Assembly: GCA_001314905.1 (NCBI GenBank)
Contig: LJZT01000017.1
Location: 1-54,086, forward strand
DNA length: 54,086 nt
Reading direction: 5' to 3'
From: Phormidium sp. OSCR
GTDB taxonomy: Bacteria; Cyanobacteriota; Cyanobacteriia; Cyanobacteriales; Geitlerinemataceae
Part shown: piece by piece, positions 34,248 through 53,769 of the stretch
Position numbering within the stretch: the stretch's first letter is position 1
Layout of the letters: every line of letters begins with the position of its first letter
Made by a program: the position numbers and the translations under genes
The notes under the pieces: generated by a model
Database searches by the model: none
Told to the model about the DNA's origin: nothing
The model's input: the letters and a program-made list of their open reading frames with translations, nothing else

Positions 34248-37200
34248 GTTTCAATCCCTCAAAGGGATTTTAGGGAATTTCGAGTCGAGGAGTTCCTCGA
34301 AAATCAGAGCGTGATGTTCGTTTCAATCCCTCAAAGGGATTTTAGGGAATTTCGAGCTAGCCGGAAGACCGTCCATCTCATTGTCCATCAGTTTCAATCC
34401 CTCAAAGGGATTTTAGGGAATTTCGAGAAAATCACGGCAATGCCCGATGGTCAAGTATCCGTGTTTCAATCCCTCAAAGGGATTTTAGGGAATTTCGAGT
34501 TTAGTGTTAGAAGAGCGCCGAAAATTTTCACCCGGTTTCAATCCCTCAAAGGGATTTTAGGGAATTTCGAGGTCAGAGAATCGCAATGGCTGGCTTAATA
34601 TACCACAATTTACGGTTTCAATCCCTCAAAGGGATTTTAGGGAATTTCGAGGGAGTCGCGCCACGGCTCCTGCCTCGGATTTGCAGTTTCAATCCCTCAA
34701 AGGGATTTTAGGGAATTTCGAGGTAATTGAGTCGCCAAAGGGATTCACCGATCGGATGTTTCAATCCCTCAAAGGGATTTTAGGGAATTTCGAGATGAGG
34801 GGGGAGACTTGCAACTCATCGATGACTCAGATGTTTCAATCCCTCAAAGGGATTTTAGGGAATTTCGAGCTGTGCGATCGCCTCATCAGGATTCCATTCC
34901 TCGGTTTCAATCCCTCAAAGGGATTTTAGGGAATTTCGAGTTAAGTGCGCGAATGAGAGCGTGAGTTTTCACCGGGTTTCAATCCCTCAAAGGGATTTTA
35001 GGGAATTTCGAGTTGATTCGTCGTGACCAATCAATTCACCCCTTCACTGAAGGTTTCAATCCCTCAAAGGGATTTTAGGGAATTTCGAGTCTGTCAAGTC
35101 AACCCCCGATATGCTGTTATCGGTTTCAATCCCTCAAAGGGATTTTAGGGAATTTCGAGTGAAGATGGCAGTACCACAATCCTCGGAACCATCGAGTTTC
35201 AATCCCTCAAAGGGATTTTAGGGAATTTCGAGCGCATTATCGTCATCCTGGAGGAGATTCAGGATGTTTCAATCCCTCAAAGGGATTTTAGGGAATTTCG
35301 AGCCTGAGTAAAAACTGGTCCACCGGGAAGCATAGTTTCAATCCCTCAAAGGGATTTTAGGGAATTTCGAGTCTATTACTGTTGACACGACCCAATTTGC
35401 TGGCGGGTTTCAATCCCTCAAAGGGATTTTAGGGAATTTCGAGAAGCCTTTTCGCGGCTTCAATTTCCGGCTCCAGGGCTAGTTTCAATCCCTCAAAGGG
35501 ATTTTAGGGAATTTCGAGTGAAGAAATTTCAGAAAGAAAATGCTGGGAGACTGGATGTTTCAATCCCTGAAAGGGATTTTAGGGAATTTCGAGTATTAAC
35601 CTATTCTTACTTGTATATAGCGAATAATTGTTTCAATCCCTCAAAGGGATTTTAGGGAATTTCGAGTTCCTCGGTTACCGTGTTTGGTGTCTCGTTAGCC
35701 GATACGTTTCAATCCCTCAAAGGGATTTTAGGGAATTTCGAGCTCCGGGTACGCTCGGATGAGCGGGAAGTCTCAGCAGGCCATCAGTAGTTTCAATCCC
35801 TCAAAGGGATTTTAGGGAATTTCGAGCCTCATTCCATGCTTTGACAGCAGCTTTCAATTTCGTTTCAATCCCTCAAAGGGATTTTAGGGAATTTCGAGCA
35901 ACATCACCTTCCCATTCCATTCGTTCTTAAGGTTTCAATCCCTCAAAGGGATTTTAGGGAATTTCGAGCGAATAGTCTGCCCATCGATGGTCTGAAGATT
36001 GTTTCAATCCCTCAAAGGGATTTCAGGGAATTTCGAGGGCCCCCTTCGTCACCTGGGCACAAACTTGGCTAACCGTTTCAATCCCTCAAAGGGATTTTAG
36101 GGAATTTCGAGTTCTTCCGATACGCCACAGGAAACCCGGAGATAGGTTTCAATCCCTCAAAGGGATTTTAGGGAATTTCGAGCATATTTACACTCCCGAG
36201 GGGGAGGACATGGGTCTGGTTTCAATCCCTCAAAGGGATTTTAGGGAATTTCGAGATAATGGGACAAGAACACCTTAAATCCTTCCTCGTTTCAATCCCT
36301 CAAAGGGATTTTAGGGAATTTCGAGTCGGTGGAATCCGACGCTTGGGCTGATACGTCAAAGGTTTCAATCCCTCAAAGGGATTTTAGGGAATTTCGAGGA
36401 ACTGCCTGGTTCCCAAGGACTAAAAGAATCACGGTTTCAATCCCTCAAAGGGATTTTAGGGAATTTCGAGTCTCCCCTCTCCCCTCCGACGCCAGGAGGA
36501 CGGGAGTTTCAATCCCTCAAAGGGATTTTAGGGAATTTCGAGGAGGGGAGAGGGGAGAGGGCGCGCAAACATCCCGTTTCAATCCCTCAAAGGGATTTTA
36601 GGGAATTTCGAGTCGTTGACGCTAGATTAGTTACATCGGGAGGCAAGGAACACCGGTTTCAATCCCTCAAAGGGATTTTAGGGAATTTCGAGTGTAATCG
36701 TTTCAGGTTCACAGACGAGCGGCTTGTTTCAATCCCTCAAAGGGATTTTAGGGAATTTCGAGTATCGGAGCAGCTATCTCATAACGAGGGGATAGAAAAA
36801 GTTTCAATCCCTCAAAGGGATTTTAGGGAATTTCGAGGGTAACGCTCGTCAGCCCATCGTGTTCGTCTCCAAGGTTTCAATCCCTCAAAGGGATTTTAGG
36901 GAATTTCGAGAATCCGTGCTTAACCCCACATTTACCTTCGCATAATCCAAAGTTTCAATCCCTCAAAGGGATTTTAGGGAATTTCGAGTATCGTCTCGCA
37001 GAGCATAGGTGCGCTTGCTCGAATCTACGCGTTTCAATCCCTCAAAGGGATTTTAGGGAATTTCGAGTCGACCAAAAGTCCGCTCTCGTTTTTGAGTACG
37101 AAGTTTCAATCCCTCAAAGGGATTTTAGGGAATTTCGAGTCTAGAGGCTGTGGGGCGGTTCACTACGGTTGATGTTTCAATCCCTCAAAGGGATTTTAGG

Positions 37201-39778
37201 GAATTTCGAGAATCAACGTAAATACGGGTCAACTTGAATCACTCAGTTTCAATCCCTCAAAGGGATTTTAGGGAATTTCGAGGAGACCGACCCGTGTATC
37301 GGCATGAGATTCAGCGTTTCAATCCCTCAAAGGGATTTTAGGGAATTTCGAGTAAGCCCGCCCAGGATGTCGCCTAGCTCGTCTTCCCAGTTTCAATCCC
37401 TCAAAGGGATTTTAGGGAATTTCGAGCCACCTGGTCCGGGTCCCTAAATCTACGCCAAAGAGTTTCAATCCCTCAAAGGGATTTTAGGGAATTTCGAGTG
37501 GGGAATTGAAATAGGTAATCAGATTTTTAGCGTTTGTTTCAATCCCTCAAAGGGATTTTAGGGAATTTCGAGTGGCGGACTTGCGGGGGGATAGGCCATC
37601 CCCCCAGAGTTTCAATCCCTCAAAGGGATTTTAGGGAATTTCGAGGTGGGTTTTCGTACAGCAAAATCGCCGACTGCCTGAAAGTTTCAATCCCTCAAAG
37701 GGATTTTAGGGAATTTCGAGAGCCCCTAGGGGGGGGCTGTGAGAGATGAGGGGAATTGTTTCAATCCCTCAAAGGGATTTTAGGGAATTTCGAGTCGGGG
37801 TTTCGGTCAAAGAGCGTCCAATCAAATAAGGTTTCAATCCCTCAAAGGGATTTTAGGGAATTTCGAGTTAAGGAAGTGCGCACAGGGCGTTGCACGTTGC
37901 TCGTTTCAATCCCTCAAAGGGATTTTAGGGAATTTCGAGTGGCCGCTGAAGTCACGCCGTATTGTTTCCCCAATTGGTTTCAATCCCTCAAAGGGATTTT
38001 AGGGAATTTCGAGTACACAGATGACAAGGACCAGAAATATCTCTACACGTTTCAATCCCTCAAAGGGATTTTAGGGAATTTCGAGGAATTTAACTAACTC
38101 GGAATATTCTGGATTGCCGAATTGCTGGTTTCAATCCCTCAAAGGGATTTTAGGGAATTTCGAGGCCAACCAGGCCGTCCCATTTACCTCGCCTTTGATG
38201 CTGTTTCAATCCCTCAAAGGGATTTTAGGGAATTTCGAGGGTATATTTGTCCCGCCACAATATCCCCCACAAAAGCTGTTTCAATCCCTCAAAGGGATTT
38301 TAGGGAATTTCGAGTTGAAAGCTTTGAAGATGATGAGCGAGTCTGGAATATGGTTTCAATCCCTCAAAGGGATTTTAGGGAATTTCGAGGTCGATTATGT
38401 CCCTTGGTCAGCGCGTCAGGAGAGTAGTTTCAATCCCTCAAAGGGATTTTAGGGAATTTCGAGCGAAGCTGCCAGCGGGACTATTGGCTATCCGTCCGCG
38501 GTTTCAATCCCTCAAAGGGATTTTAGGGAATTTCGAGCTAAGCACTGCCTGTCTTATGCTCGCCAGAAGGGCAGTTTCAATCCCTCAAAGGGATTTTAGG
38601 GAATTTCGAGTTGGAGGTTTAGCTGGGCCCACGCGGGAAACGATGAGTTTCAATCCCTCAAAGGGATTTTAGGGAATTTCGAGCTAACCGTCGGTGAACC
38701 TCCAAAGCCGCTAGTCGAGGTTTCAATCCCTCAAAGGGATTTTAGGGAATTTCGAGTGGCGGACTTTATTGATGCGGCGCTACCAGTTGCTTCGTTTCAA
38801 TCCCTCAAAGGGATTTTAGGGAATTTCGAGCGGTTACATTTATTCTTCTCAATTTTGCTTAGAGGTTTCAATCCCTCAAAGGGATTTTAGGGAATTTCGA
38901 GTGGAGTTCGGCTAATACCCGCCGCAGTGGCGGCGGTTTCAATCCCTCAAAGGGATTTTAGGGAATTTCGAGGCGGCACTCCCCCCTTGCTCCTCGGGAA
39001 TCCGGGGTTTCAATCCCTCAAAGGGATTTTAGGGAATTTCGAGCATCTAGCGGAAAACGCATTATGACCTACTATTTGTTTCAATCCCTCAAAGGGATTT
39101 TAGGGAATTTCGAGCGCCCCAGGGGGGTATATGTCGAGATGAAAACCCCTGGCAGTTTCAATCCCTCAAAGGGATTTTAGGGAATTTCGAGTATCGGAAG
39201 GCAAGGAACACAGAGCCAACCGAGTAGTTTCAATCCCTCAAAGGGATTTTAGGGAATTTCGAGTCCCGCCACACCAAGCCCGCCAGAAATGCCGGAAGAA
39301 GAAGTTTCAATCCCTCAAAGGGATTTTAGGGAATTTCGAGAGCCTACACACGCTAAGCCCACGGATATGCCCTTTTAAGTTTCAATCCCTCAAAGGGATT
39401 TTAGGGAATTTCGAGGAAAGCTTCAGTTACACCCCGTACTTCCTGGCGAGTGTTTCAATCCCTCAAAGGGATTTTAGGGAATTTCGAGACGCCTTCGATA
39501 TCGCCGGAGACATGACGGCGATCGCCCGTTTCAATCCCTCAAAGGGATTTTAGGGAATTTCGAGGGCTTGTCGTTTGGCTGATGCTTCCGGCATAGGGTT
39601 TCAATCCCTCAAAGGGATTTTAGGGAATTTCGAGCCCCGACCTAGACAACTTTGTTAAGGCGGTGCTAGTTTCAATCCCTCAAAGGGATTTTAGGGAATT
39701 TCGAGGGTGGCGGAGGCGCTCAACTCCGCAGGCTTTAAGACGTTTCAATCCCTCAAAGGGATTTTAGGGAATTTCGAG
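34248..39778 (-). CRISPR. Type I-D CRISPR array, 76 repeats
   Basis: By direct count there are 76 repeats of 37 bp and 75 spacers of 32-47 bp (most 33-38). On the plus strand the repeat starts GTTTCAATCCC, continues TCAAAGGGATTTTAGGG and ends AATTTCGAG. Read on the minus strand it contains the stem AATCCC-TTTGA-GGGATT and ends ATTGAAAC, which gives the usual 8-nt crRNA 5' handle. Transcription is therefore leftward, the same direction as the cas genes, from the leader at 39779. Only two repeats differ, each by one base: the one at 35557 (CTGAAAGG) and the one at 36001 (TTTCAGGG). Their internal position suggests spread or recombination within the array rather than simple decay at the old end. 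Confidence 0.98.
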
Positions 39779-44695: not shown

Positions 44696-47600
44696 TTATT
44701 CCTCCTCGCGATTAGCAGATTTATCTTTCACGTCTTGATTCTCTTTGTCCTGTTCGAGACGATAGAGAAATTCGCAGGTATCGCGGAGTAGGTTGAGTTG
44801 TTTACCTGCCAAACGAGCGCGATCGCCCTTAAATGTCTTTTCAAACACCTCCTCAACAAAGTAACGGGAAAATCCCAAAACTTTCTGACGTTCCTCTTCG
44901 CGATCTTGAATTTTCCAATAGCCTTCAGCGGTGGAGGCGTGAACTCGATCCATCAGCTTAAAAATTTCGGCGGCGACAACAGCAACGAGGGTTTCCCCAT
45001 GGAAGAGGCTGCTGTCAGCTTTGAGTAAGGTTTCAGCTGCGACATCTAAGGGTTTTAACACCGCATTAGATTTGGGATTGTAACGCTTATTGGCGCGATA
45101 AAACTCTCGATAGAGTTCAACGAGTTGTTTAGGATGATGTAGGGGAGATTCTGGAGACATGATGGTTAGTTCCTGTTGATGGCGATCGCTAGTAACATGG
45201 GGGTCGAAACAAGGGTAAAAGTCATAGGTATATAATCGAAGACGTTTGGGACTCGGTGCGTCGGTGTCCCGCGCACGCGACCATTTGGCAAGATAGTGAA
45301 AGACATACAAGGGACTGGTATCTAAATTGTTAGCAAGTTCACTGAATTTACCCCAGTTGGCATCGTATCCTTTTTTACCTCGTTTAGGATTGATATCCAA
45401 GTGGATACTATAGGCGGCGGTGAGGCAGTTTAGGGGAGAGAGGAGACTATCTAAACGGAAGCGATCGCCGTTTAATAAGACTCGAAATGCCTGGGGTGCG
45501 CTGTCAAGAAATACGGTTTCTTCAAATTCAGAACCTTCACGGAAGGGAGGAATAGGTGATTCGGAAACAACTGTTTTTACATCCAATATATTGGGAATGG
45601 TCAAGGCTAACCAAGCTGGCATAATCCAGGATTCCGTATCAGTGGGGTCTCGTCCTGGGGGAAGGGCCATAAAGTAAAAGGTAAGCGGTTTATCCTCGGG
45701 GTAGGAGAGTTTGAAGGTGCGGTCAATTTTACGATTCTTATCCCCTTCTGGAAGCTGCTGCTTCTCCTGGAGTTGTTCGTCGATAATGAAGCTATCAACG
45801 GTTTGATAGTGGTTGAGGCTAAAGTTGGCTTCTAAGGTTTCATGATTGACAAAGTGACCCCGAATTTGGGTATCAAAGCGAGTTTGGGCAATGTTGCTAT
45901 AGGCTAAGGCGAGGAAGTTATTGGTTTCTGGGGTGAAGTAGTAGGTGGGATAGAAGTAAAGATAGCGATATTTGCCATCTTCAAACCGTTTCCCCACAGC
46001 TTGGGTTTGGTTCATCAAGATTTGCCGCAACATCATTTCGGTTCCCGCAATACTAGAAATATTGCGTTTGGCGTTTGACCCCCCTAACATTTGTTTGTTG
46101 GTATAGACTTGAGGGGTAAACAATACAGCAGATTCCATTTGTTCCGTCACACTATAGGGAGAGTGAGAGAGGGAACACAACAGTTGACGACCTCGACCTG
46201 GTTTTTTTGCCGTTTGATAGTGGTCTAATTCTTGCAGGAAAATATCAGCTTGTTCAGCGGCAGTTTTCTCAGCCGGTTGATGGGGTAAGATGACCACCTG
46301 TTCAGTCCAATGTCGGATGTCATCCCAACCATCGCTGAGGGGATATGGACTGATAATTGGGTTGGTGATTGTTAAAATTGTCTCAATAATCTGTTCCCCG
46401 AGTTCCCGAATCTCATCTTGGCTTTGTCCAGGATTGTTTTGCAGGTATTTTGCGGCTAAGAAATACCAGTCTAAGGGAACTCCGCCTGTGTTTCCTTTCA
46501 ATTTTAGCTCTTTAAGACTGGCGTTAATCCCTTGAATTTCCCGAAGTTCTGGCAAACAAGACTCCAGTTGCCAAGTTTTGGCAATTTCGAGGATTAAATT
46601 GGGTTCAGGGAGTTTCTGGATGGCATCTTTGGCAGCTTTTCCTTTTAGGCTTTGTTTGAGAAACGCTTCAATGCGAGACCGGCGATCGCCCCAAATTTTT
46701 CGGGTCACCACATCGCCAAATTCTGCAATTTGGTCGATGCGAATGTCGTCGTCAAAGTCAAAATTATACTCAGGAGGGAGAACACCTTTTGTCTGGAACT
46801 CCTTTAGCTTGTCACTTCGGCTTTTGGCGACTGACTTTTTGTTGGGATTGAGAATCCGCAGGGTTGCATCTAACGCTACCTGCATTAAGCCAGTATCTTC
46901 AAAAAACTGAGTATAGTAATCAGCATATTTCATTCCTTTGCCATCTCGACCAAATCCCGTTTGTTTCCGTTGCAGTTCCCCGGCACAAAGTTGCTTAATA
47001 CTGGCAACAACGCGATTGGGAAGGTCATCTCGTGAAATAGGAGGGGGATTTTTGGAGGTAAGATAAATGACACCGGTGGGAAGATAGAGGAGGGGGTCAT
47101 AGTTCTGTTCTAAATGGGCCTCCATCACCGCATTGTTCACGATGTTGGTGAGAACCCCCCGGTTTTCACAAATCGCATGGTAGCTGAGTTGCAGTTGACC
47201 ATCACTCAAGTCCCCGATAACTTTATTGAGACTGGATTTTTCGGCATCTTGGGGATGTTTGATAATGGAGGAGAGGCGATCGGCGAGACAGGCTAAGTCC
47301 GCTAGACAGTTTAGGGTGCGATCGCCCAGAGTCGGGGTTAGACTACTATCAGATAGATTGAGATTGGTGTCATTTTTCTCCTGTGTGTTATAGGCGATGT
47401 AGAGTAAATCATCACGGTAGTCTTCCCAGTTGGCAGGATTGTCGGGGAAGAGGAAGGTATCCAGTTCTAAGGCCGGAACGAGATGATCAAAAATCTCTCG
47501 ATGTTCTTCGGGGGGACGCTTGCGGATATCGGCATCGAGATTCTGACTTAGCTGCTGATAGACTTCGGGGATTCCTGGGATGCGGCGATAGTCAAATTTC

Positions 47601-48115
47601 TCGAAGTCATGGAGGACAAACCCCGCAATTCCCAAGCGGCGACTCAAGTCATCCACCACGCGACAAACGGTGGTGTTTAGGCTTTGTAAACGACGTTCAA
47701 TCAGGTTGGCGGGAAACAAGCCATTGAGAATATGGGTATTTAAGGACTGATCTGTGGCGTTATCACGACGAACCGCTTGACGTTCTCCCCTGGCGACGCG
47801 GCGATCGAGTTCTTCAAAGAACCATCCTCCCTTTGCAGAGACACCAATGGTGTATTTGAGAAGGTTCGGTAGGACAAATTCAGCAAAATCTGCCATTACG
47901 GTGTCATTGGGATGGGTTTTCTCAATGGCTTGTTTGAGAAGTTTTAGGGTCAGAAGTTGACGGGACAATTCGACAGTGCGATCGCCCTCTTCATCGCTTA
48001 ATCCCAAGTCTTCGGGATTCATTTCCTCAAAGTCATCATCGTCAAAGTCGTCATTGACATTGAGATTGTCAAAAAGACTCAGTTGTTTGGGATCGTCTGG
48101 ATTTTGGGATGGCAT
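44696..48115 (-). CDS. cas10d: Type I-D large subunit Cas10d (Csc3)
   Basis: A 1139-residue protein, the signature of subtype I-D. The N-terminal HD nuclease domain is recognisable from SLNTHILNGLFPANLIERRL and GFVLHDFEKFDYRRIPG (about residues 125-185), so the DNA-cutting activity sits here and not in Cas3'. The central palm-like region lacks an obvious GGDD cyclase motif. The N-terminus is very acidic (DDDFEEMNPEDLGLSDEEGD). It ends 54 bp before csc2 and is preceded by hepT across 59 bp. Confidence 0.95.
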   Translation of the reverse strand: MPSQNPDDPKQLSLFDNLNVNDDFDDDDFEEMNPEDLGLSDEEGDRTVELSRQLLTLKLLKQAIEKTHPNDTVMADFAEFVLPNLLKYTIGVSAKGGWFFEELDRRVARGERQAVRRDNATDQSLNTHILNGLFPANLIERRLQSLNTTVCRVVDDLSRRLGIAGFVLHDFEKFDYRRIPGIPEVYQQLSQNLDADIRKRPPEEHREIFDHLVPALELDTFLFPDNPANWEDYRDDLLYIAYNTQEKNDTNLNLSDSSLTPTLGDRTLNCLADLACLADRLSSIIKHPQDAEKSSLNKVIGDLSDGQLQLSYHAICENRGVLTNIVNNAVMEAHLEQNYDPLLYLPTGVIYLTSKNPPPISRDDLPNRVVASIKQLCAGELQRKQTGFGRDGKGMKYADYYTQFFEDTGLMQVALDATLRILNPNKKSVAKSRSDKLKEFQTKGVLPPEYNFDFDDDIRIDQIAEFGDVVTRKIWGDRRSRIEAFLKQSLKGKAAKDAIQKLPEPNLILEIAKTWQLESCLPELREIQGINASLKELKLKGNTGGVPLDWYFLAAKYLQNNPGQSQDEIRELGEQIIETILTITNPIISPYPLSDGWDDIRHWTEQVVILPHQPAEKTAAEQADIFLQELDHYQTAKKPGRGRQLLCSLSHSPYSVTEQMESAVLFTPQVYTNKQMLGGSNAKRNISSIAGTEMMLRQILMNQTQAVGKRFEDGKYRYLYFYPTYYFTPETNNFLALAYSNIAQTRFDTQIRGHFVNHETLEANFSLNHYQTVDSFIIDEQLQEKQQLPEGDKNRKIDRTFKLSYPEDKPLTFYFMALPPGRDPTDTESWIMPAWLALTIPNILDVKTVVSESPIPPFREGSEFEETVFLDSAPQAFRVLLNGDRFRLDSLLSPLNCLTAAYSIHLDINPKRGKKGYDANWGKFSELANNLDTSPLYVFHYLAKWSRARDTDAPSPKRLRLYTYDFYPCFDPHVTSDRHQQELTIMSPESPLHHPKQLVELYREFYRANKRYNPKSNAVLKPLDVAAETLLKADSSLFHGETLVAVVAAEIFKLMDRVHASTAEGYWKIQDREEERQKVLGFSRYFVEEVFEKTFKGDRARLAGKQLNLLRDTCEFLYRLEQDKENQDVKDKSANREEE

Positions 48116-48174
48116 AGTAAGGATGGTGTTTGTTTTGCTAATTTGGTTTATAAGACTGTCCAGTTGTGAATTAT

Positions 48175-48621
48175 CTAATCTCCCCTAAGAGAATCAAGAT
48201 ATTCTGCAATCTGGGATACATACAATGGGTAATATCTAATACTTTTGTGGATTGAATTAAATACAATTTCTGGATTTATATCGAGATAAAGATGGACAAG
48301 AATATTTCTCATGCTGGCTGCATCTGCTAACTCGCGGGCCACTTCTGATGTTAAAATTTTCTGATGACTCGCCTCTAGAAAGTAATCCTTATTAGTCCAA
48401 TGTGCTCGATTTTCCAAAATCCCGAGTTGAGATAAAAGATATTTGTTAATATCTAAAGCTGCTTCCGCACAAAGCTGAATTAATCGCTCGGCAATTAACT
48501 GGTTATCTTCACTTTCAAGATAGTCTGTTAAGGTCATGGTATTGAATTTTTTTAATCTGGCAATTAATGAACTTATTTTTTCCAGTCTTCGCCAAATAAC
48601 GCTAGTATTAAATTGACTCAT
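48175..48621 (-). CDS. hepT: HepT-like HEPN toxin
   Basis: A 148-residue helical protein with the HEPN ribonuclease motif RNILVHLY near residue 104 (Rx4HxY). In characterised HepT/MntA pairs the HEPN protein cuts RNA and the Tyr of this motif is modified by the MNT partner to switch it off. The start overlaps the stop of mntA by 4 bp (ATGA), the normal antitoxin-toxin coupling. The pair lies inside the I-D operon between cas3' and cas10d on the same strand, so it probably shares its transcript and may guard it. Confidence 0.9.
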   Translation of the reverse strand: MSQFNTSVIWRRLEKISSLIARLKKFNTMTLTDYLESEDNQLIAERLIQLCAEAALDINKYLLSQLGILENRAHWTNKDYFLEASHQKILTSEVARELADAASMRNILVHLYLDINPEIVFNSIHKSIRYYPLYVSQIAEYLDSLRGD

Positions 48622-49061
48622 AGCCCTTGTTCCCGTAAAAACTGATAGACCCGCGTTCTGGATTTATTGATGATATCATCAATTTTATTTTGGCTCAAAA
48701 GGCTATTCTTTTTGAACTCATCAAATAGTCCAGGATCTTGCTCATAAATTAGCTTGCCATCTTGTGCAATATGGTGAGCCATCAACTCAGAACAGCGTTG
48801 AATTTCAACTACATCGATGTTATCACTATTCAAATTGAGACAATCCCCAATAATGCCGATATCACGAAACCAGCCAAACCCCTCAACAGTTTTTCGGCGG
48901 AGTTCTTCATCGTAAAGGACAGCGAAGTCCCAGTCACTATTTGGATGTGTATCTCCCCTGGCACGAGACCCAAATAAAATCAACATCTTGAGGTAAGGTA
49001 TCTCTTGTAATAACCGACCTAAATCAATCTGTAATTCCATGTGATTTGAAGGTATCAACAT
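48618..49061 (-). CDS. mntA: MntA-like nucleotidyltransferase antitoxin
   Basis: A 147-residue minimal nucleotidyltransferase. The active site GSRARGDTHPNSDWD (about residues 32-46) fits GSx10DxD, and a third Asp lies in NIDVVEI. Characterised homologues add AMP units to the HepT tyrosine and so neutralise it. A second in-frame ATG at 49040 is an alternative start. The C-terminal third (LSQNKIDDIINKSRTRVYQFLREQGL) is longer than in the smallest family members. Confidence 0.9.
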   Translation of the reverse strand: MLIPSNHMELQIDLGRLLQEIPYLKMLILFGSRARGDTHPNSDWDFAVLYDEELRRKTVEGFGWFRDIGIIGDCLNLNSDNIDVVEIQRCSELMAHHIAQDGKLIYEQDPGLFDEFKKNSLLSQNKIDDIINKSRTRVYQFLREQGL

Positions 49062-49181
49062 ATTTTCATAAACTTTTACTTGGCTGGTGTGCTATGACGG
49101 CATAACACACCAAACATTAGTGACTTTAACCGGTTTAAAACTTAAACCAATGGTTGCACGATTTTGACCTATTTCATTAGA

Positions 49182-49412
49182 TTACTCATCATAAATGTAG
49201 TTGCAAACAGCAGTTCCATCATTAGAGTAAGGATGCGGGGAACAGTCAAATCCATATTTTTCCTGGATGACCTGTTGTCGTATTCCTTGAAGCGTCCCTA
49301 AGTATTTAGACGCACGCGCGATTACGTCTTTGGGCAAACTAGCATTTTGAGAGCAATGAAATAAAAATTCAATTACCTCCTCAAGCTGTTTGATATTGGA
49401 AAGATCAGGCAT
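49182..49412 (-). CDS. Small protein of unknown function in the cas operon
   Basis: A 76-residue protein with a helical N-terminal half (LSNIKQLEEVIEFLFHCSQN) and a polar Cys-containing tail (FDCSPHPYSNDGTAVCNYIYDE). I do not recognise it. A good ribosome-binding site (GGAGCAGG, plus-strand positions 49416-49423) three bases before the ATG supports a real gene. It lies between the pseudo-array region and mntA and is in the same direction as both TA genes and cas genes. Confidence 0.6.
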   Translation of the reverse strand: MPDLSNIKQLEEVIEFLFHCSQNASLPKDVIARASKYLGTLQGIRQQVIQEKYGFDCSPHPYSNDGTAVCNYIYDE

Positions 49413-49616
49413 AAACCTGCTCCATTTCTAAAATTAACAAGAGTTATCAGACCCATATTGTTCAAAGCAATCATTAATTTGAACTGACATAGCACGATGC
49501 GCCGATACCGTCCAAGCAGGAGGGCAAAGGAGTGCAGTTTTGTACTTGTAGTTCCGGGCGCTTTTCCCAGTGGGTCTAGTATCCCTATTCTTAAGGATGC
49601 CCCACACCTGCAGGCT

Positions 49617-49644
49617 TTGTCAATACTTTCTAACGATTTACAAT
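49617..49644 (+). promoter_or_regulatory. Near-consensus promoter driving the pseudo-array
   Basis: -35 TTGTCA (49617-49622) and -10 TACAAT (49639-49644), each one mismatch from consensus, 16 bp apart. The start of transcription would be near 49651, reading away from the leftward cas genes and through the guide-matching site and both pseudo-repeats. Confidence 0.7.
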
Positions 49645-49659
49645 ACATGAACCCTATAG

Positions 49660-49685
49660 CGCATCTACGGCTGCAACACATGGAC
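49660..49685 (-). promoter_or_regulatory. Target-like site matched by the pseudo-spacer
   Basis: On the minus strand, GTC (49685-49683) is followed by CATGTGTTGCAGCCGTAGAT, then GCG down to 49660. The pseudo-spacer starting at 49763 (plus strand) reads CATGTGTTGTACTCGTACTT, then GCG. The first nine bases are identical, and 18 of the first 23 match, with mismatches at 10, 12, 13, 18 and 19. GTC fits the known I-D PAM class (GTN). The site covers roughly +1 to +31 of the promoter at 49617-49644. Confidence 0.75.
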
Positions 49686-49742
49686 GCTGAACAATTTATG
49701 CTATACTCTCCCCGTGAGAGCAGTGACGTGATCTCTATCTAA
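49680..49742 (+). CDS. Candidate 20-codon ORF ahead of the pseudo-array
   Basis: An ATG at 49680 opens a 20-codon frame (MDAEQFMLYS...DVISI) that ends two bases into the first pseudo-repeat. It is the first ATG after the predicted transcription start and lies partly in the guide-matching site. There is no clear ribosome-binding site, and coding cannot be shown at this length. By analogy with CreTA modules it could be, or overlap, a small toxin; the toxin could equally be an RNA. A second short frame (49764-49874, 36 codons) starts inside the pseudo-spacer after GAGGGA. Confidence 0.25.
   Translation: MDAEQFMLYSPRESSDVISI
49702..49707 (+). promoter_or_regulatory. Possible second -10 box before the pseudo-array
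   Basis: TATACT, 34 bp before the first pseudo-repeat, with no good -35 at the expected distance. It could give the pseudo-array its own start point, separate from the upstream promoter. Confidence 0.35.
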
Positions 49743-49848
49743 TCCCTTTGAGGGATTGAAAACATGTGTTGTACTCGTACTTGCGTGCGCTACTCTCATC
49801 ATTCCAGACACTTCTGGAACGTCCCAATCCCTTTGAGGGATAGTTATC
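49741..49848 (+). ncRNA. Degenerate two-repeat mini-array (CreA-like crRNA analogue)
   Basis: Pseudo-repeat 1 (49741-49762) keeps 21 of the last 22 bases of the array repeat, including the stem and the handle, with the final C changed to A (ATTGAAAA). Pseudo-repeat 2 (49814-49848) keeps the whole stem AATCCCTTTGAGGGAT (49826-49841) but has a 3-bp deletion before it and has lost the handle. The pseudo-spacer between (49763-49813) is about 51 nt, longer than any array spacer, and ends with part of a hairpin (TTCCAGA/TCTGGAA). Cas6 could cut at both stems to release one guide with a near-normal 5' handle. It is on the strand opposite the array and the cas genes and runs into the 3' end of cas3'. 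Confidence 0.8.
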
Positions 49849-52012
49849 CAGCAATCCATATCTCTCCCCCCTGACGCTTGAGATACCCCGCCAACACATC
49901 CAACAACAACGCCGATTGACCGATCGCCAACGAGTACGGTGGCGTTGTCGTATGAATACTGTAACTGTCAGCGATGGGATAAATACTAAAGTGCATCGGT
50001 AGCCGCAATCGCTGGCGAACCTCCCTCACCGGAAGGGGAACCACATAACTCACCAAGGCCTGACGCTTCAATTTTTGGTTAATTTCACCAATCCAAGGGT
50101 TCTCAGGTTGCCAGATTTGCACCCCCGCCAGGACTTGAACTTTCCAGGAGTTGGCAACGGCCTCCAAACTCCCCGGATAGCTAAACCGCCAGTTTAACCG
50201 TTCCTCCCGGTAGCCTTTCAACCTCATAAACCCCAAACAATGGCGAAATCGTCCTTTGGCGATCGGTTGGTCGATCGCCTCTAACCGCCGCCTAAACCCC
50301 GCCTCCGTCCACATCTCAATCTCTAGGTTGCTGAGAATCCCCGGTAAGTCGTAGGTTTTAAAGCGATCGCCTCCCTCAACCTCCGTCTCGTCATACAGTC
50401 CACATTGCAGGGGACTCGATCCTCGGAAACTCCAAGCTTCCTCAGCAATAGGATTGTTCGATTTGCCTGACATCGCCTCCCAGTCACGCTTAGAGGCTTG
50501 CATCAATCCCTGGGTTCGCTTGAAGGAGGTGTCGAATAGGGTTTGACAGTCTCGACGGAAGCGATCTCGACTGTCCGTATAAATTGTCCGAATTTGAGGA
50601 TGACCCAAATCATAATAAAGTTTTACCGATTGAACGGCCCCCCATTTCTGATAATAACCCTGAAAGTCATTGATTTTACGATATTCATTGTGAATCGCCT
50701 CATTAAATTCTGTCCGTTCATAGTGTTCTCCCACCTTGAGAGGTGCGTCGTCTTTTTCAAACAGTCGTTCTGCTAAAAACTGCGGAACCAATCCATAGGC
50801 AATAAAGCAATGAAAAGGATGAAACCCCTCCCCATCTTCAGAGCCATCATGTCGTCCTAACCGTCCCAATCGCTGGATAAAATTACCGGAATCAGAAGAT
50901 TCAAACCAAAGTAAGTTGATTTTGAAATCGACCCCCACATCAATGGTACTCGTTCCAATGACCAAATCAGACTCTAACGATTGTTGTTTCGTCTGTTTCC
51001 CGGAAAGTCCGGTATTCTCGCCAACGGTGAGTCCATGTTGAGAAAATAACGCTTTGAATCTGGGAACTAACCGCTTAACGGCGGCAATGGAGTTAAGAAT
51101 AATTGCACCTTTACTTCCTGGATGGTCTAGGAAATCTTTAAGGATGCGATCGCAATTTTCTCGTAACCAATGTTCAGACGCTTGAGTTGTCGAGTCTAGG
51201 GCAACAAGATTAAACTGAATTTCTCGGGAAATTTGTCGCCAACCCTGGCTGAGTAGGCGTTTCTTCTCCTCCTCACTCTCAGGATAGGCGTATTTCCTCT
51301 CCTCCACTGGATTGATAACCTGATAACAAAATCCCACCCGATCTAACCTCTCGATGAGCTGTACATCTGGCGTTGCCGAGAGAAACAAAAACTTCTTGCG
51401 GCGATTGGTATGGCGAATCAAGAGTAGGGTATTGAGTACACTGGCAACTTGAGGAGCAGAGAAAACATGAAACTCATCAAATATAAATTGGTCGAAGTTC
51501 TTGTCAATGCGATTCCAAAGTTTATCTGGGTTGTCATAGCGATTGAGATAAGCCCCCCGATGAAGATAGTGAATCATATCTGGGTTAGACAGTAACACTT
51601 CAGAATTGGAGCCTTGACGAGCAATGGCTTGGGATTTGCTCAAGTCTTCTTGCTCAGAAAATAATTCTAATTCTGCACTACTTAAACGATTGATTCGTGG
51701 TACATTAACTTGAGGAAAATTATGAATATACTCACTCACTTGTCGCTCTTGGTCCCGTGCTAACTCATTCGTCGGATACATCCCTAAGGCAACTTTGTTA
51801 TTGAGTAAGACTGGGGAATAGGCGGCAAAACTTTTCCCATCTCCCGTCATGGCAGTATTCACCACCACATCGATGTCCGGATTTTGCAGTGCCTGATAGG
51901 TTTGCGCCTGATGCCACATCCAACCCCAGTCGCGGGGAAGTGTCACCCCTGCTGGCGGCATGGCAGCGGGTTCTGAGAAAATTGGCTTGAGAGTGATAGG
52001 ATACTCCACCAT
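49844..52012 (-). CDS. cas3': Type I-D Cas3' helicase
   Basis: A 722-residue superfamily 2 helicase without a nuclease domain; the I-D nuclease is in Cas10d. Motif I is TAMTGDGKSFAA, motif II is FDEFHVF, motif III is LFLSATPD, motif V is VIGTSTIDVGVDF and motif VI is QRLGRLGRHDG. It unwinds target DNA after Cascade binding. I chose the ATG at 52012 (MVEYPITLKPIFSEP), which matches the usual family start; the frame extends to a TTG at 52054. It is the first gene of the leftward operon, and its stop lies within pseudo-repeat 2. Confidence 0.93.
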   Translation of the reverse strand: MVEYPITLKPIFSEPAAMPPAGVTLPRDWGWMWHQAQTYQALQNPDIDVVVNTAMTGDGKSFAAYSPVLLNNKVALGMYPTNELARDQERQVSEYIHNFPQVNVPRINRLSSAELELFSEQEDLSKSQAIARQGSNSEVLLSNPDMIHYLHRGAYLNRYDNPDKLWNRIDKNFDQFIFDEFHVFSAPQVASVLNTLLLIRHTNRRKKFLFLSATPDVQLIERLDRVGFCYQVINPVEERKYAYPESEEEKKRLLSQGWRQISREIQFNLVALDSTTQASEHWLRENCDRILKDFLDHPGSKGAIILNSIAAVKRLVPRFKALFSQHGLTVGENTGLSGKQTKQQSLESDLVIGTSTIDVGVDFKINLLWFESSDSGNFIQRLGRLGRHDGSEDGEGFHPFHCFIAYGLVPQFLAERLFEKDDAPLKVGEHYERTEFNEAIHNEYRKINDFQGYYQKWGAVQSVKLYYDLGHPQIRTIYTDSRDRFRRDCQTLFDTSFKRTQGLMQASKRDWEAMSGKSNNPIAEEAWSFRGSSPLQCGLYDETEVEGGDRFKTYDLPGILSNLEIEMWTEAGFRRRLEAIDQPIAKGRFRHCLGFMRLKGYREERLNWRFSYPGSLEAVANSWKVQVLAGVQIWQPENPWIGEINQKLKRQALVSYVVPLPVREVRQRLRLPMHFSIYPIADSYSIHTTTPPYSLAIGQSALLLDVLAGYLKRQGGEIWIAG

Positions 52013-52019
52013 GAGAAAC

Positions 52020-52098
52020 TGTCCGTAAGCTGTTGCTAACTTCCATATTGCCAAGCAAAATGGGAATTAGCAAGCATTAAACGGATAAAGTGTCCGTA
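52020..52098. promoter_or_regulatory. Candidate operators between cas3' and the WYL regulator gene
   Basis: The 99-bp divergent gap holds two patterned elements. An inverted repeat, TTGCTAACTTCC (52033-52044) and GGGAATTAGCAA (52062-52073), pairs at 10 of 12 positions. TGTCCGTA occurs at 52020 and again at 52091; the second copy forms a palindrome with ACGGATA (52081-52087). The elements are placed to control both cas3' and the regulator gene. Confidence 0.6.
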
Positions 52099-53188: not shown

Positions 53189-53422
53189 ATGAGTACAACT
53201 CCTGAATTACTGAACCGGATTACGCAAAACCCTGGTCAATGTGGTGGTCGTCCATGTATTCGAGGAATGCGGATTCGGGTCGTCGATATTTTAGAAATGT
53301 TAGCCAACAATGTTAGTATTTCTGAAATTTTAGACGACTTCCCAGATTTAGAACTAGCGGATGTTCAAGCTTGTTTAATCTTTGCCGCACGACGTACGGA
53401 TTTTCCTAGACTAACCGTATGA
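53189..53422 (+). CDS. DUF433 antitoxin
   Basis: A 77-residue protein; RITQNPGQCGGRPCIRGMRIRVVDILEMLA and DDFPDLELADVQACLIFAARR are the DUF433 core, a VapB-like helix-turn-helix antitoxin family. It overlaps the DUF5615 gene by 4 bp. In such pairs the antitoxin binds the toxin and represses their promoter. The pair lies at the edge of the CRISPR island, where small TA modules commonly collect. Confidence 0.88.
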   Translation: MSTTPELLNRITQNPGQCGGRPCIRGMRIRVVDILEMLANNVSISEILDDFPDLELADVQACLIFAARRTDFPRLTV

Positions 53423-53769
53423 AAATTTGGGTCGATGCTCAACTTCCGCCCACCCTAGCCAGTTGGCTGACAGAAACATTTGGTTTAGAAGCGAGTGCAT
53501 TGCGAGATTTAGGGCTGCGGGATGCTCAAGATATCGAAATTTTCGCAGCGGCACGGGCTGAACGTGTTGTTATTATCACAAAAGACAGCGATTTCATTGA
53601 TTTAGTCTGTCGTTTAGGATCGCCTCCTCAAATTGTGTGGCTAACCTGTGGAAATGTTACTAACCGCAACTTACGACAATTATTAACTGCAGCTTTACCA
53701 AAGGCGTTAGAACAACTGTACCAGGGGGAAATGATTGTCGAAATTACAAATGCTCCTGAAAGTGGATGA
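53419..53769 (+). CDS. DUF5615 PIN-like toxin
   Basis: A 116-residue PIN-like nuclease. KIWVDAQLPPTLASWL supplies the first acidic residue, RDAQDIEIFAAARAERVVIITKDSDFIDL the later ones (TKDSDF motif), and VWLTCGNVTNRNLRQLL the last strand and helix. It is the toxin of the DUF433 partner and is expected to cut RNA. It is too short for a classical PIN protein but normal for DUF5615. Confidence 0.88.
   Translation: MKIWVDAQLPPTLASWLTETFGLEASALRDLGLRDAQDIEIFAAARAERVVIITKDSDFIDLVCRLGSPPQIVWLTCGNVTNRNLRQLLTAALPKALEQLYQGEMIVEITNAPESG

Follow-up and report, generated by a model that had tools for sequence, protein, structure and literature searches.

When toxin-antitoxin genes lie close to a CRISPR locus, they tend to be labelled, without a test, as guards of the locus or as abortive partners, and the question is raised again by a mntA-hepT pair that lies between cas3' and cas10d in a type I-D operon of the cyanobacterium Phormidium sp. 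OSCR. Is this pair a guard, a passenger or a partner of the CRISPR locus? Two natural experiments, namely a near-identical locus without the pair and lineages that lost the antidote together with the catalytic residue of the toxin but kept the toxin gene, make these roles separable, and named loci, e.g. that of plasmid pANA02 from Anabaena sp. 90, belong to the natural cases. Our analysis started from the contig LJZT01000017.1, the whole stretch of which (54,086 nucleotides) is called the window below.

A sequence-only reading of the window had placed a HepT/MntA pair with intact Rx4HxY and GSx10DxD motifs at 48175-49061, between cas3' and cas10d and on their strand. All of this was confirmed: the coordinates are exact and all four genes are on the minus strand (Table 1). 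The scores of 90.9 bits for NF047751 (HepT RNase toxin) and 84.8 bits for NF047752 (MntA antitoxin) both exceed the curated NCBIfam cut-off of 60, the Pfam assignments of both genes agree with this, and chance or mis-annotation is ruled out by the Pfam, NCBIfam and PDB matches. In the translations the HepT motif reads R105-NILV-H110-L-Y112 and the MntA motif, counted by hand, G31-S32-x10-D43-W-D45. In addition, mntA lies 5' of hepT with a 4-nt ATGA overlap, which is the antitoxin-first order of type VII toxin-antitoxin systems. Judged by family, motifs and gene order, in all of which HepT and MntA agree with type VII, the pair is a type VII toxin-antitoxin system and thus of a kind already known. 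The host genome contains seven HepT-like loci, but only a single match for the window MntA.

Table 1. Features of the type I-D locus around the mntA-hepT pair (window positions).
Feature	Position	Strand	Basis
cas10d/csc3, directly 3' of hepT, 59 nt from the hepT stop	44696-48115	-	TIGR03174, E 8.7e-272
Exchangeable cassette	48119-49823		~97% identity to G009 on both flanks, none inside at E 1e-5
hepT, HEPN ribonuclease toxin, 148 aa	48175-48621	-	NF047751, E 5e-26; PDB 7ae9_A, E 3.4e-29
mntA, minimal nucleotidyltransferase (adenylyltransferase) antitoxin, 147 aa	48618-49061	-	NF047752, E 3.2e-24; PDB 7ae2_B, E 7.9e-35
Inverted repeat TGGTGTGCTAT..ATAACACACCA, 23 nt ahead of the start of mntA	49085-49112		read by eye from the sequence
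76-aa ORF, upstream of mntA	49182-49412	-	ORF list
Two partial protospacers for the pseudo-spacer, 5' GTT and GTC	49614-49682	-	seed matching
psiR1, degenerate repeat, 25/37 identical to the array repeat	49726-49762	+	repeat comparison
Pseudo-spacer of the mini-CRISPR	49763-49810	+	between psiR1 and psiR2
psiR2, 21/37 identical to the array repeat, overlaps the cas3' stop	49811-49847	+	repeat comparison
cas3' helicase, upstream neighbour	49844-52054	-	TIGR03158, E 6.8e-101

The HEPN-MNT system of Aphanizomenon flos-aquae (PDB 7ae2, 7ae6, 7ae8, 7ae9), reportedly studied by Songailiene et al. in 2020, consists of orthologous proteins that have both motifs in common with the window pair, whereas the host differs and the window pair is known here from its sequence alone. 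Among solved structures, 7ae2/7ae9 come nearest, their HEPN chain to HepT and their MNT chain to MntA (E-values in Table 1), and as the alignments extend over nearly the full length, that of the window MntA reaching residue 146 with residues 16-149 of 7ae2_B as the counterpart, the two pairs are orthologues by sequence. PMC11586414 assigns 7AE2 to A. flos-aquae and describes how MntA of A. flos-aquae and S. oneidensis docks on HepT by a C-terminal alpha4 helix, which the Legionella MntA does not have. According to parts of PMC11676413, the Aphanizomenon system adjoins a I-D CRISPR-Cas system, its HEPN removes four nucleotides from tRNA 3' ends, MNT inactivates HEPN by diAMPylation, and a role as ATP sensor was suggested by the authors. 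The HepT-MntA pair of Shewanella oneidensis (PDB 5yep, 6m6u) belongs to the same family and has the same motif, but its HepT is much less similar to the window HepT (E 2e-4); polyadenylylation-dependent neutralisation is named for it in the title of a reference. The HEPN survey PMC3710099 counts the MNT-HEPN dyad among the toxin-antitoxin systems; in the examined portions of this survey inactive HEPN copies are discussed generally and the term I-D is absent. Likewise, the main text of the I-D review PMC10212523 is free of the word toxin, and the portions of the open-access full-text literature covered, with subscription papers mostly outside, gave no survey of the placement of the pair in I-D loci. 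New here are the distribution of HepT over these loci, its junctions with cas10d, the G009 locus without the pair, the pattern of histidine loss and the target of a mini-CRISPR.

The sequence-only reading had proposed a survey of I-D loci for the same insertion. Among 388 genomes from the order of the window, 175 match the Cas10d family and 66 hold a window-like HepT; 160 regions were retrieved among the matches listed for Cas10d and HepT. From the retrieved DNA, 64 of the 66 HepT genomes were classified, the others being the window genome (G000) and the fragment G144, which stayed unclassified. The insertion is recurrent, as HepT is found at I-D loci in 54 of the 66 genomes (41 cas10d loci, 12 loci of an I-D variant and the window), and the placement in the window is therefore not a matter of chance. 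Directly between cas3' and cas10d lie 38 of the 41 cases at cas10d loci, two lie between a WYL gene and cas3' and one at a contig edge. HepT has the orientation of the cas genes in all 53 CRISPR-linked retrieved cases and likewise in the window. In the remaining 11 HepT genomes no cas gene was present within 7 kb of retrieved DNA, some of the copies being near contig ends; CRISPR is therefore not obligatory for the pair.

Several junctions are used within I-D operons: ahead of cas10d (locus L277), ahead of the Csc3 of the variant (L278), between cas3' and cas6 (L279, L294), between csc2 and csc1 (L304) and ahead of cas3' (G184, L292). Out of 46 named genome loci, 18 have HepT immediately before cas10d, one of them split by a stop, and four more have it at I-D-type genes (L292, L294, L303, L304); no cas gene was found at the non-cyanobacterial named loci L305-L315 with cyanobacterial profiles. 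Matches also occur in eight named plasmid records, five cyanobacterial and three haloarchaeal, and the cyanobacterial ones are all at cas loci. The orders are MNT-HepT-cas10d in Dolichospermum, cas3'-MNT-HepT-cas6 in Leptolyngbya, HepT before cas6 in Kovacikia and cas3'-PDDEXK-HepT-cas10d on pANA02, and the Pseudanabaena plasmid carries the pair in a variant-like arrangement with a large subunit annotated as Csc3. A phage-borne pair was rejected, since the 50,697 phage records contained no match to the pair and only one weak viral contig was obtained.

The I-D variant combines Csc2 (TIGR03157, E 5e-111) with a 900-aa large subunit for which, in a search with the single protein of L172, no NCBIfam model was obtained at E 0.01. 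In this locus (L172:5282-7978, minus strand), which is of the Csc2 type and contains MntA-HepT, the large subunit of about 900 aa shows an HDLNKLD motif; similar arrangements were seen in L168, L173-L175 and L278. Tandem MntA-HepT pairs exist in L132 (both HepT long), L128 (one a fragment) and L131 (both fragments), and the order in L188 is MntA-HepT-MntA.

Is the pair expressed together with its neighbours, as had been proposed? Junctions were compared in 35 loci with cas10d and a HepT of more than 350 nt. In 28 of them the stop of HepT and the first possible in-frame start codon of cas10d, which is not a proven start, are -16 to +35 nt apart, and an 8-nt overlap is common to 15; six of the other seven junctions are at least 0.9 kb apart and one has no detectable cas10d start. 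The spacer in the window measures 59 nt. A separate terminator and promoter isolating the pair would have spoken against co-transcription, but the scan for both stayed at chance level (19 promoter-like sites versus 13.3 expected, 11 terminator-like sites versus 10.0 expected), and the program found no terminator-like site on the minus strand between the starts of MntA and cas10d; cas10d is immediately preceded by a weak promoter-like site (48197-48170). As the pair is embedded, co-directional and in relatives usually abutting or overlapping cas10d, expression shared with cas10d and the other effector genes is likely. On the other side, 782 bp filled with other elements separate mntA from cas3', and therefore only the cas10d junction argues for co-transcription; of the co-transcript proposed earlier, the cas10d half is thus likely and the cas3' half unsupported.

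One element in this upstream gap is an antisense mini-CRISPR. In the gap, none of 300 shuffled repeats reached the score of its repeat psiR1. The PAM of type I-D is GTN. An exact match to the seed of the pseudo-spacer (nt 1-5 and 7-11) with a 5' GTT precedes this spacer by 113 nt, with a second, partial match close by, and neither the rest of the 54-kb window nor mntA provides another exact seed-plus-GTN match. By this match, the target of the mini-CRISPR is its own upstream region and not mntA. The protospacers overlap a promoter-like site of the plus strand as well as a 31-aa ORF starting at 49650 (+), which is only a candidate for a CreT-like toxic element. The same kind of exact upstream target is present in 14 of 59 loci, whereas 20 spacer permutations gave 0.85 loci on average and 2 at most, and a similar hairpin, single or paired, follows cas3' in 54 of 99 main-clade loci among the matches listed (pattern search). 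Also among the matches listed, the mini-CRISPR accompanies 12 of 27 full pairs and 33 of 57 loci without the pair (p = 0.35) and is, being about equally frequent in both, treated as an independent element. A pseudo-array, as it had been called in the sequence-only reading, does therefore exist, but it is antisense, is directed at its own upstream region and was found about equally often with and without the pair.

The presence of a real mini-CRISPR between cas3' and mntA might suggest that its RNA together with Cascade represses mntA-hepT and that loss of Cascade or an anti-CRISPR frees the toxin, in analogy to the CRISPR-regulated toxins described in parts of PMC8501985, PMC9458426 and PMC12737573 (CreTA, CreR, CrePA). 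Indeed, judged by the same excerpts, the mini-CRISPR resembles CreTA in its two degenerate repeats, its pseudo-spacer and a PAM-plus-seed match within the DNA upstream of it. Unlike in CreTA/CrePA, however, mntA-hepT lies on the opposite strand, is not the target of the guide and has no match at the toxin promoter. Given also the equal frequency with and without the pair, this explanation is highly improbable, and regulation of mntA-hepT by the mini-CRISPR was rejected because there is no target at mntA in the 54-kb window.

The next explanation to be weighed is that of the earlier reading, in which the pair gives a second layer of protection to the locus as an addiction module punishing its loss. 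A toxin-antitoxin pair inside an operon would suit this role. However, G009, a genome of the same genus, has a locus with Cas10d, Cas3' and Csc2 proteins 96.7%, 96.9% and 98.8% identical to those of the window, in which the pair is absent from the gap between cas3' and cas10d, and the window HepT has no match anywhere in this genome. The reading frames of cas3', cas10d and csc2 are nevertheless open in G009; a near-identical locus thus lacks the pair without visible effect, which contradicts the proposed protection, and the pair is therefore unnecessary for keeping the locus. G038 (Cas10d 89% identical) is likewise without the pair. In addition, no trace of MntA or HepT was detected in the gap of 57 of the 99 main-clade loci among the matches listed, and the mini-CRISPR at the cas3' end could already act as a guard. 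The abortive response on shut-off of the operon, which had been offered as a second possibility, is weak as well, since toxin and antitoxin would be silenced together and neutralisation in the relative is covalent.

The comparison with G009 also defines the exchanged segment. The DNA of both genomes is ~97% identical across 53060-49824 and 48118-44738, whereas the 1705 bp between them in the window, starting 20 nt past the cas3' stop and ending 3 nt ahead of the cas10d ATG, are swapped for 697 bp in G009 without blastn similarity (E 1e-5). The insert of G009 contains a mini-CRISPR with a different spacer and a small winged-helix-like ORF (PADLOC model HTH). In G080, again of the same genus, the pair alone matches the window (49049-48188, 862 bp, 84% nucleotide identity) and is situated at an I-D variant locus; save for two short matches further upstream, the surroundings are not shared. 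The HepT tree, in which copies from I-D and variant loci are intermingled, together with the G080 match and the G009 swap points to a mobile cassette and an exchangeable gap: by these comparisons, mntA and hepT travel from one I-D locus to another as a two-gene cassette, and the gap can also be swapped as a whole.

Other genes use the same gap. Among the matches listed, 42 of the 99 main-clade loci have some MntA or HepT and 27 have both at full length, while a DUF1016 nuclease is present in 24, DUF433 in 18, a winged-helix-like ORF in 30 and the full pair together with DUF1016 in five. The 24 second-clade Cas10d loci among the matches listed had no MntA or HepT in the gap, and ten of them have DUF433 with the PIN-like DUF5615. 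Loci carrying the full pair have a median cas3'-cas10d distance of 2164 nt and loci devoid of a toxin-antitoxin-like module one of 726 nt, again among the matches listed. The DUF1016 (PDDEXK/YhcG-like) nuclease occupies the gap in L048, L058, L074, L276 and others, and it immediately precedes a dead HepT in G111, G234 and the Anabaena sp. 90 plasmid. A conserved TGCAACC hairpin of many gaps was set aside as an operator, because it falls inside the DUF1016 ORF where positions were compared.

Such a recombination-prone slot could also simply house selfish passengers, the pair having no functional tie to CRISPR. Cassettes swapped at gene boundaries, the DUF1016, DUF433 and DUF433-DUF5615 genes in the same slot and a pair that moves alone, as in G080, are consistent with this. 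The uniform co-direction in the classified CRISPR-linked cases, the tight junction with cas10d and the use of several junctions within I-D operons instead of one site argue against it, as does the constraint on dead HepT copies considered below; on balance a mere passenger is rather unlikely.

The antitoxin-free loci show what happens to the toxin. The motif was counted in HepT ORFs with a minimum length of 120 aa, 51 with and 8 without MntA, while smaller pieces were excluded (among others G241, G134, G202, G240, G301, G370, G284, G162 and G127; L048-L196). Motif R and H are kept in all 51 HepTs whose locus has an intact MntA, whereas the catalytic His is lost in seven of the eight without full MntA; the Fisher test (p = 2e-8) ignores kinship, the tree suggesting about five origins. 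When only CRISPR-linked full-length HepTs without full MntA are considered, the loss is complete (9/9: G111, G234, G130, G079, G076, G037, G352, later G391 and Anabaena sp. 90); G352, at a variant locus, retains a 71-aa MntA piece, and G096 was left out, since its HepT (354 aa, motif intact) is divergent and no cas gene is seen nearby. Also uncounted are divergent HepT-like ORFs with intact motif but without MntA or cas genes (L250 of G127, L314, L316-L325), where absence of MntA was judged by the window-type MntA profile alone and L321 gave a weak MntA match. An exception is G521 from a further Nostocaceae set, in which His is changed to Tyr although MntA is present.

By motif and tree about five separate losses can be distinguished (IKHL-YEY, RDILEYQH, RNQLIYLY, EHHLLFEY and ANHLTYEY). 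In G076 the gap is down to 424 nt with HepT adjoining cas3', and no mini-CRISPR was found in this shrunken gap; three congeners keep intact pairs. The reverse case, MntA with GSx10DxD kept but without HepT, is seen in G224, G097, G122 and G282. Loss of His without MntA together with MntA-only loci is the pattern to be expected of an intact HepT that does harm in the absence of MntA, and it suggests that CRISPR loci do not tolerate a HepT with intact active site once its antitoxin is missing. That an intact toxin without antitoxin is not seen at CRISPR loci would also fit an addiction module; in G525, G202 and G134, however, the toxin gene is broken while cas3' and cas10d persist, and in view of these loci and of G009 a guard of the locus is improbable.

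Dead HepT copies are not simply decaying. With a simple Nei-Gojobori count, dN/dS is 0.18 for G130-G079 and 0.25-0.44 for six pairs of the IKHL lineage, i.e. below 1 with binomial p-values of 2e-3 to 5e-6 in a test that assumes independent pairs, which is untrue within the IKHL lineage. In six of these seven pairs the value is above that of cas10d (0.10-0.27), and the branches of dead HepT are long in the tree; selection on dead HepT is therefore relaxed but present in the two lineages covered, the other dead lineages consisting of one sequence each. In four of the about five lineages the dead full-length HepT lies directly before cas10d, often overlapping it. Dead HepT may be retained solely for translational coupling, but for coupling by itself the amino acids would not need to be conserved, and a second role is therefore possible. 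Type I-D could have domesticated HepT as a binding partner or as a regulator of Cascade or of cas10d expression, a suggestion for which selection is seen in two lineages and retention in about five, and which we regard as tentative and rather unlikely. If true, it could also explain the repeated entry of the module into I-D operons.

The explanation that we favour, and to which we give an even chance, is that an active type VII pair travels as a mobile cassette and serves as a co-expressed second-line module of growth arrest in an exchangeable I-D slot. What can be read from the DNA for it is the identity of the pair, its motifs, position and co-direction, the tight cas10d junction in relatives, mobility, dispensability and the lost HepT active site of every CRISPR-linked full-length copy that was seen without full MntA. 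By analogy to the studied relatives, HepT would be a ribonuclease that arrests growth and MntA would silence it by attaching AMP to a tyrosine of the active-site loop. In cyanobacterial type I-D loci the pair occupies the accessory slot that separates cas3' from cas10d; it would be co-transcribed with the effector genes, and HepT would fire once MntA fails to modify newly made HepT. A possible trigger is a phage that escapes CRISPR and drains ATP, and the antiviral response would be the benefit of the window pair.

A few further features of the window may be mentioned. The inverted repeat ahead of mntA, absent from the terminator-like sites of the program scan, is possibly an operator. The 76-aa ORF, for which Pfam, NCBIfam and PADLOC gave no match, has a C-terminal motif like PYS-x-DG-x-A-x-CN; a few other I-D loci have, in the corresponding gap, small ORFs that share part of this motif but differ in the remainder. 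A CRISPR array (34248-39778) has 76 copies of a 37-nt repeat and lies beside cas2. A DUF433 gene together with a PIN-like DUF5615 gene (Pfam), a pair of the kind seen in the gap of the ten second-clade loci, is found at 53189-53769 on the plus strand, adjoining the WYL regulator.
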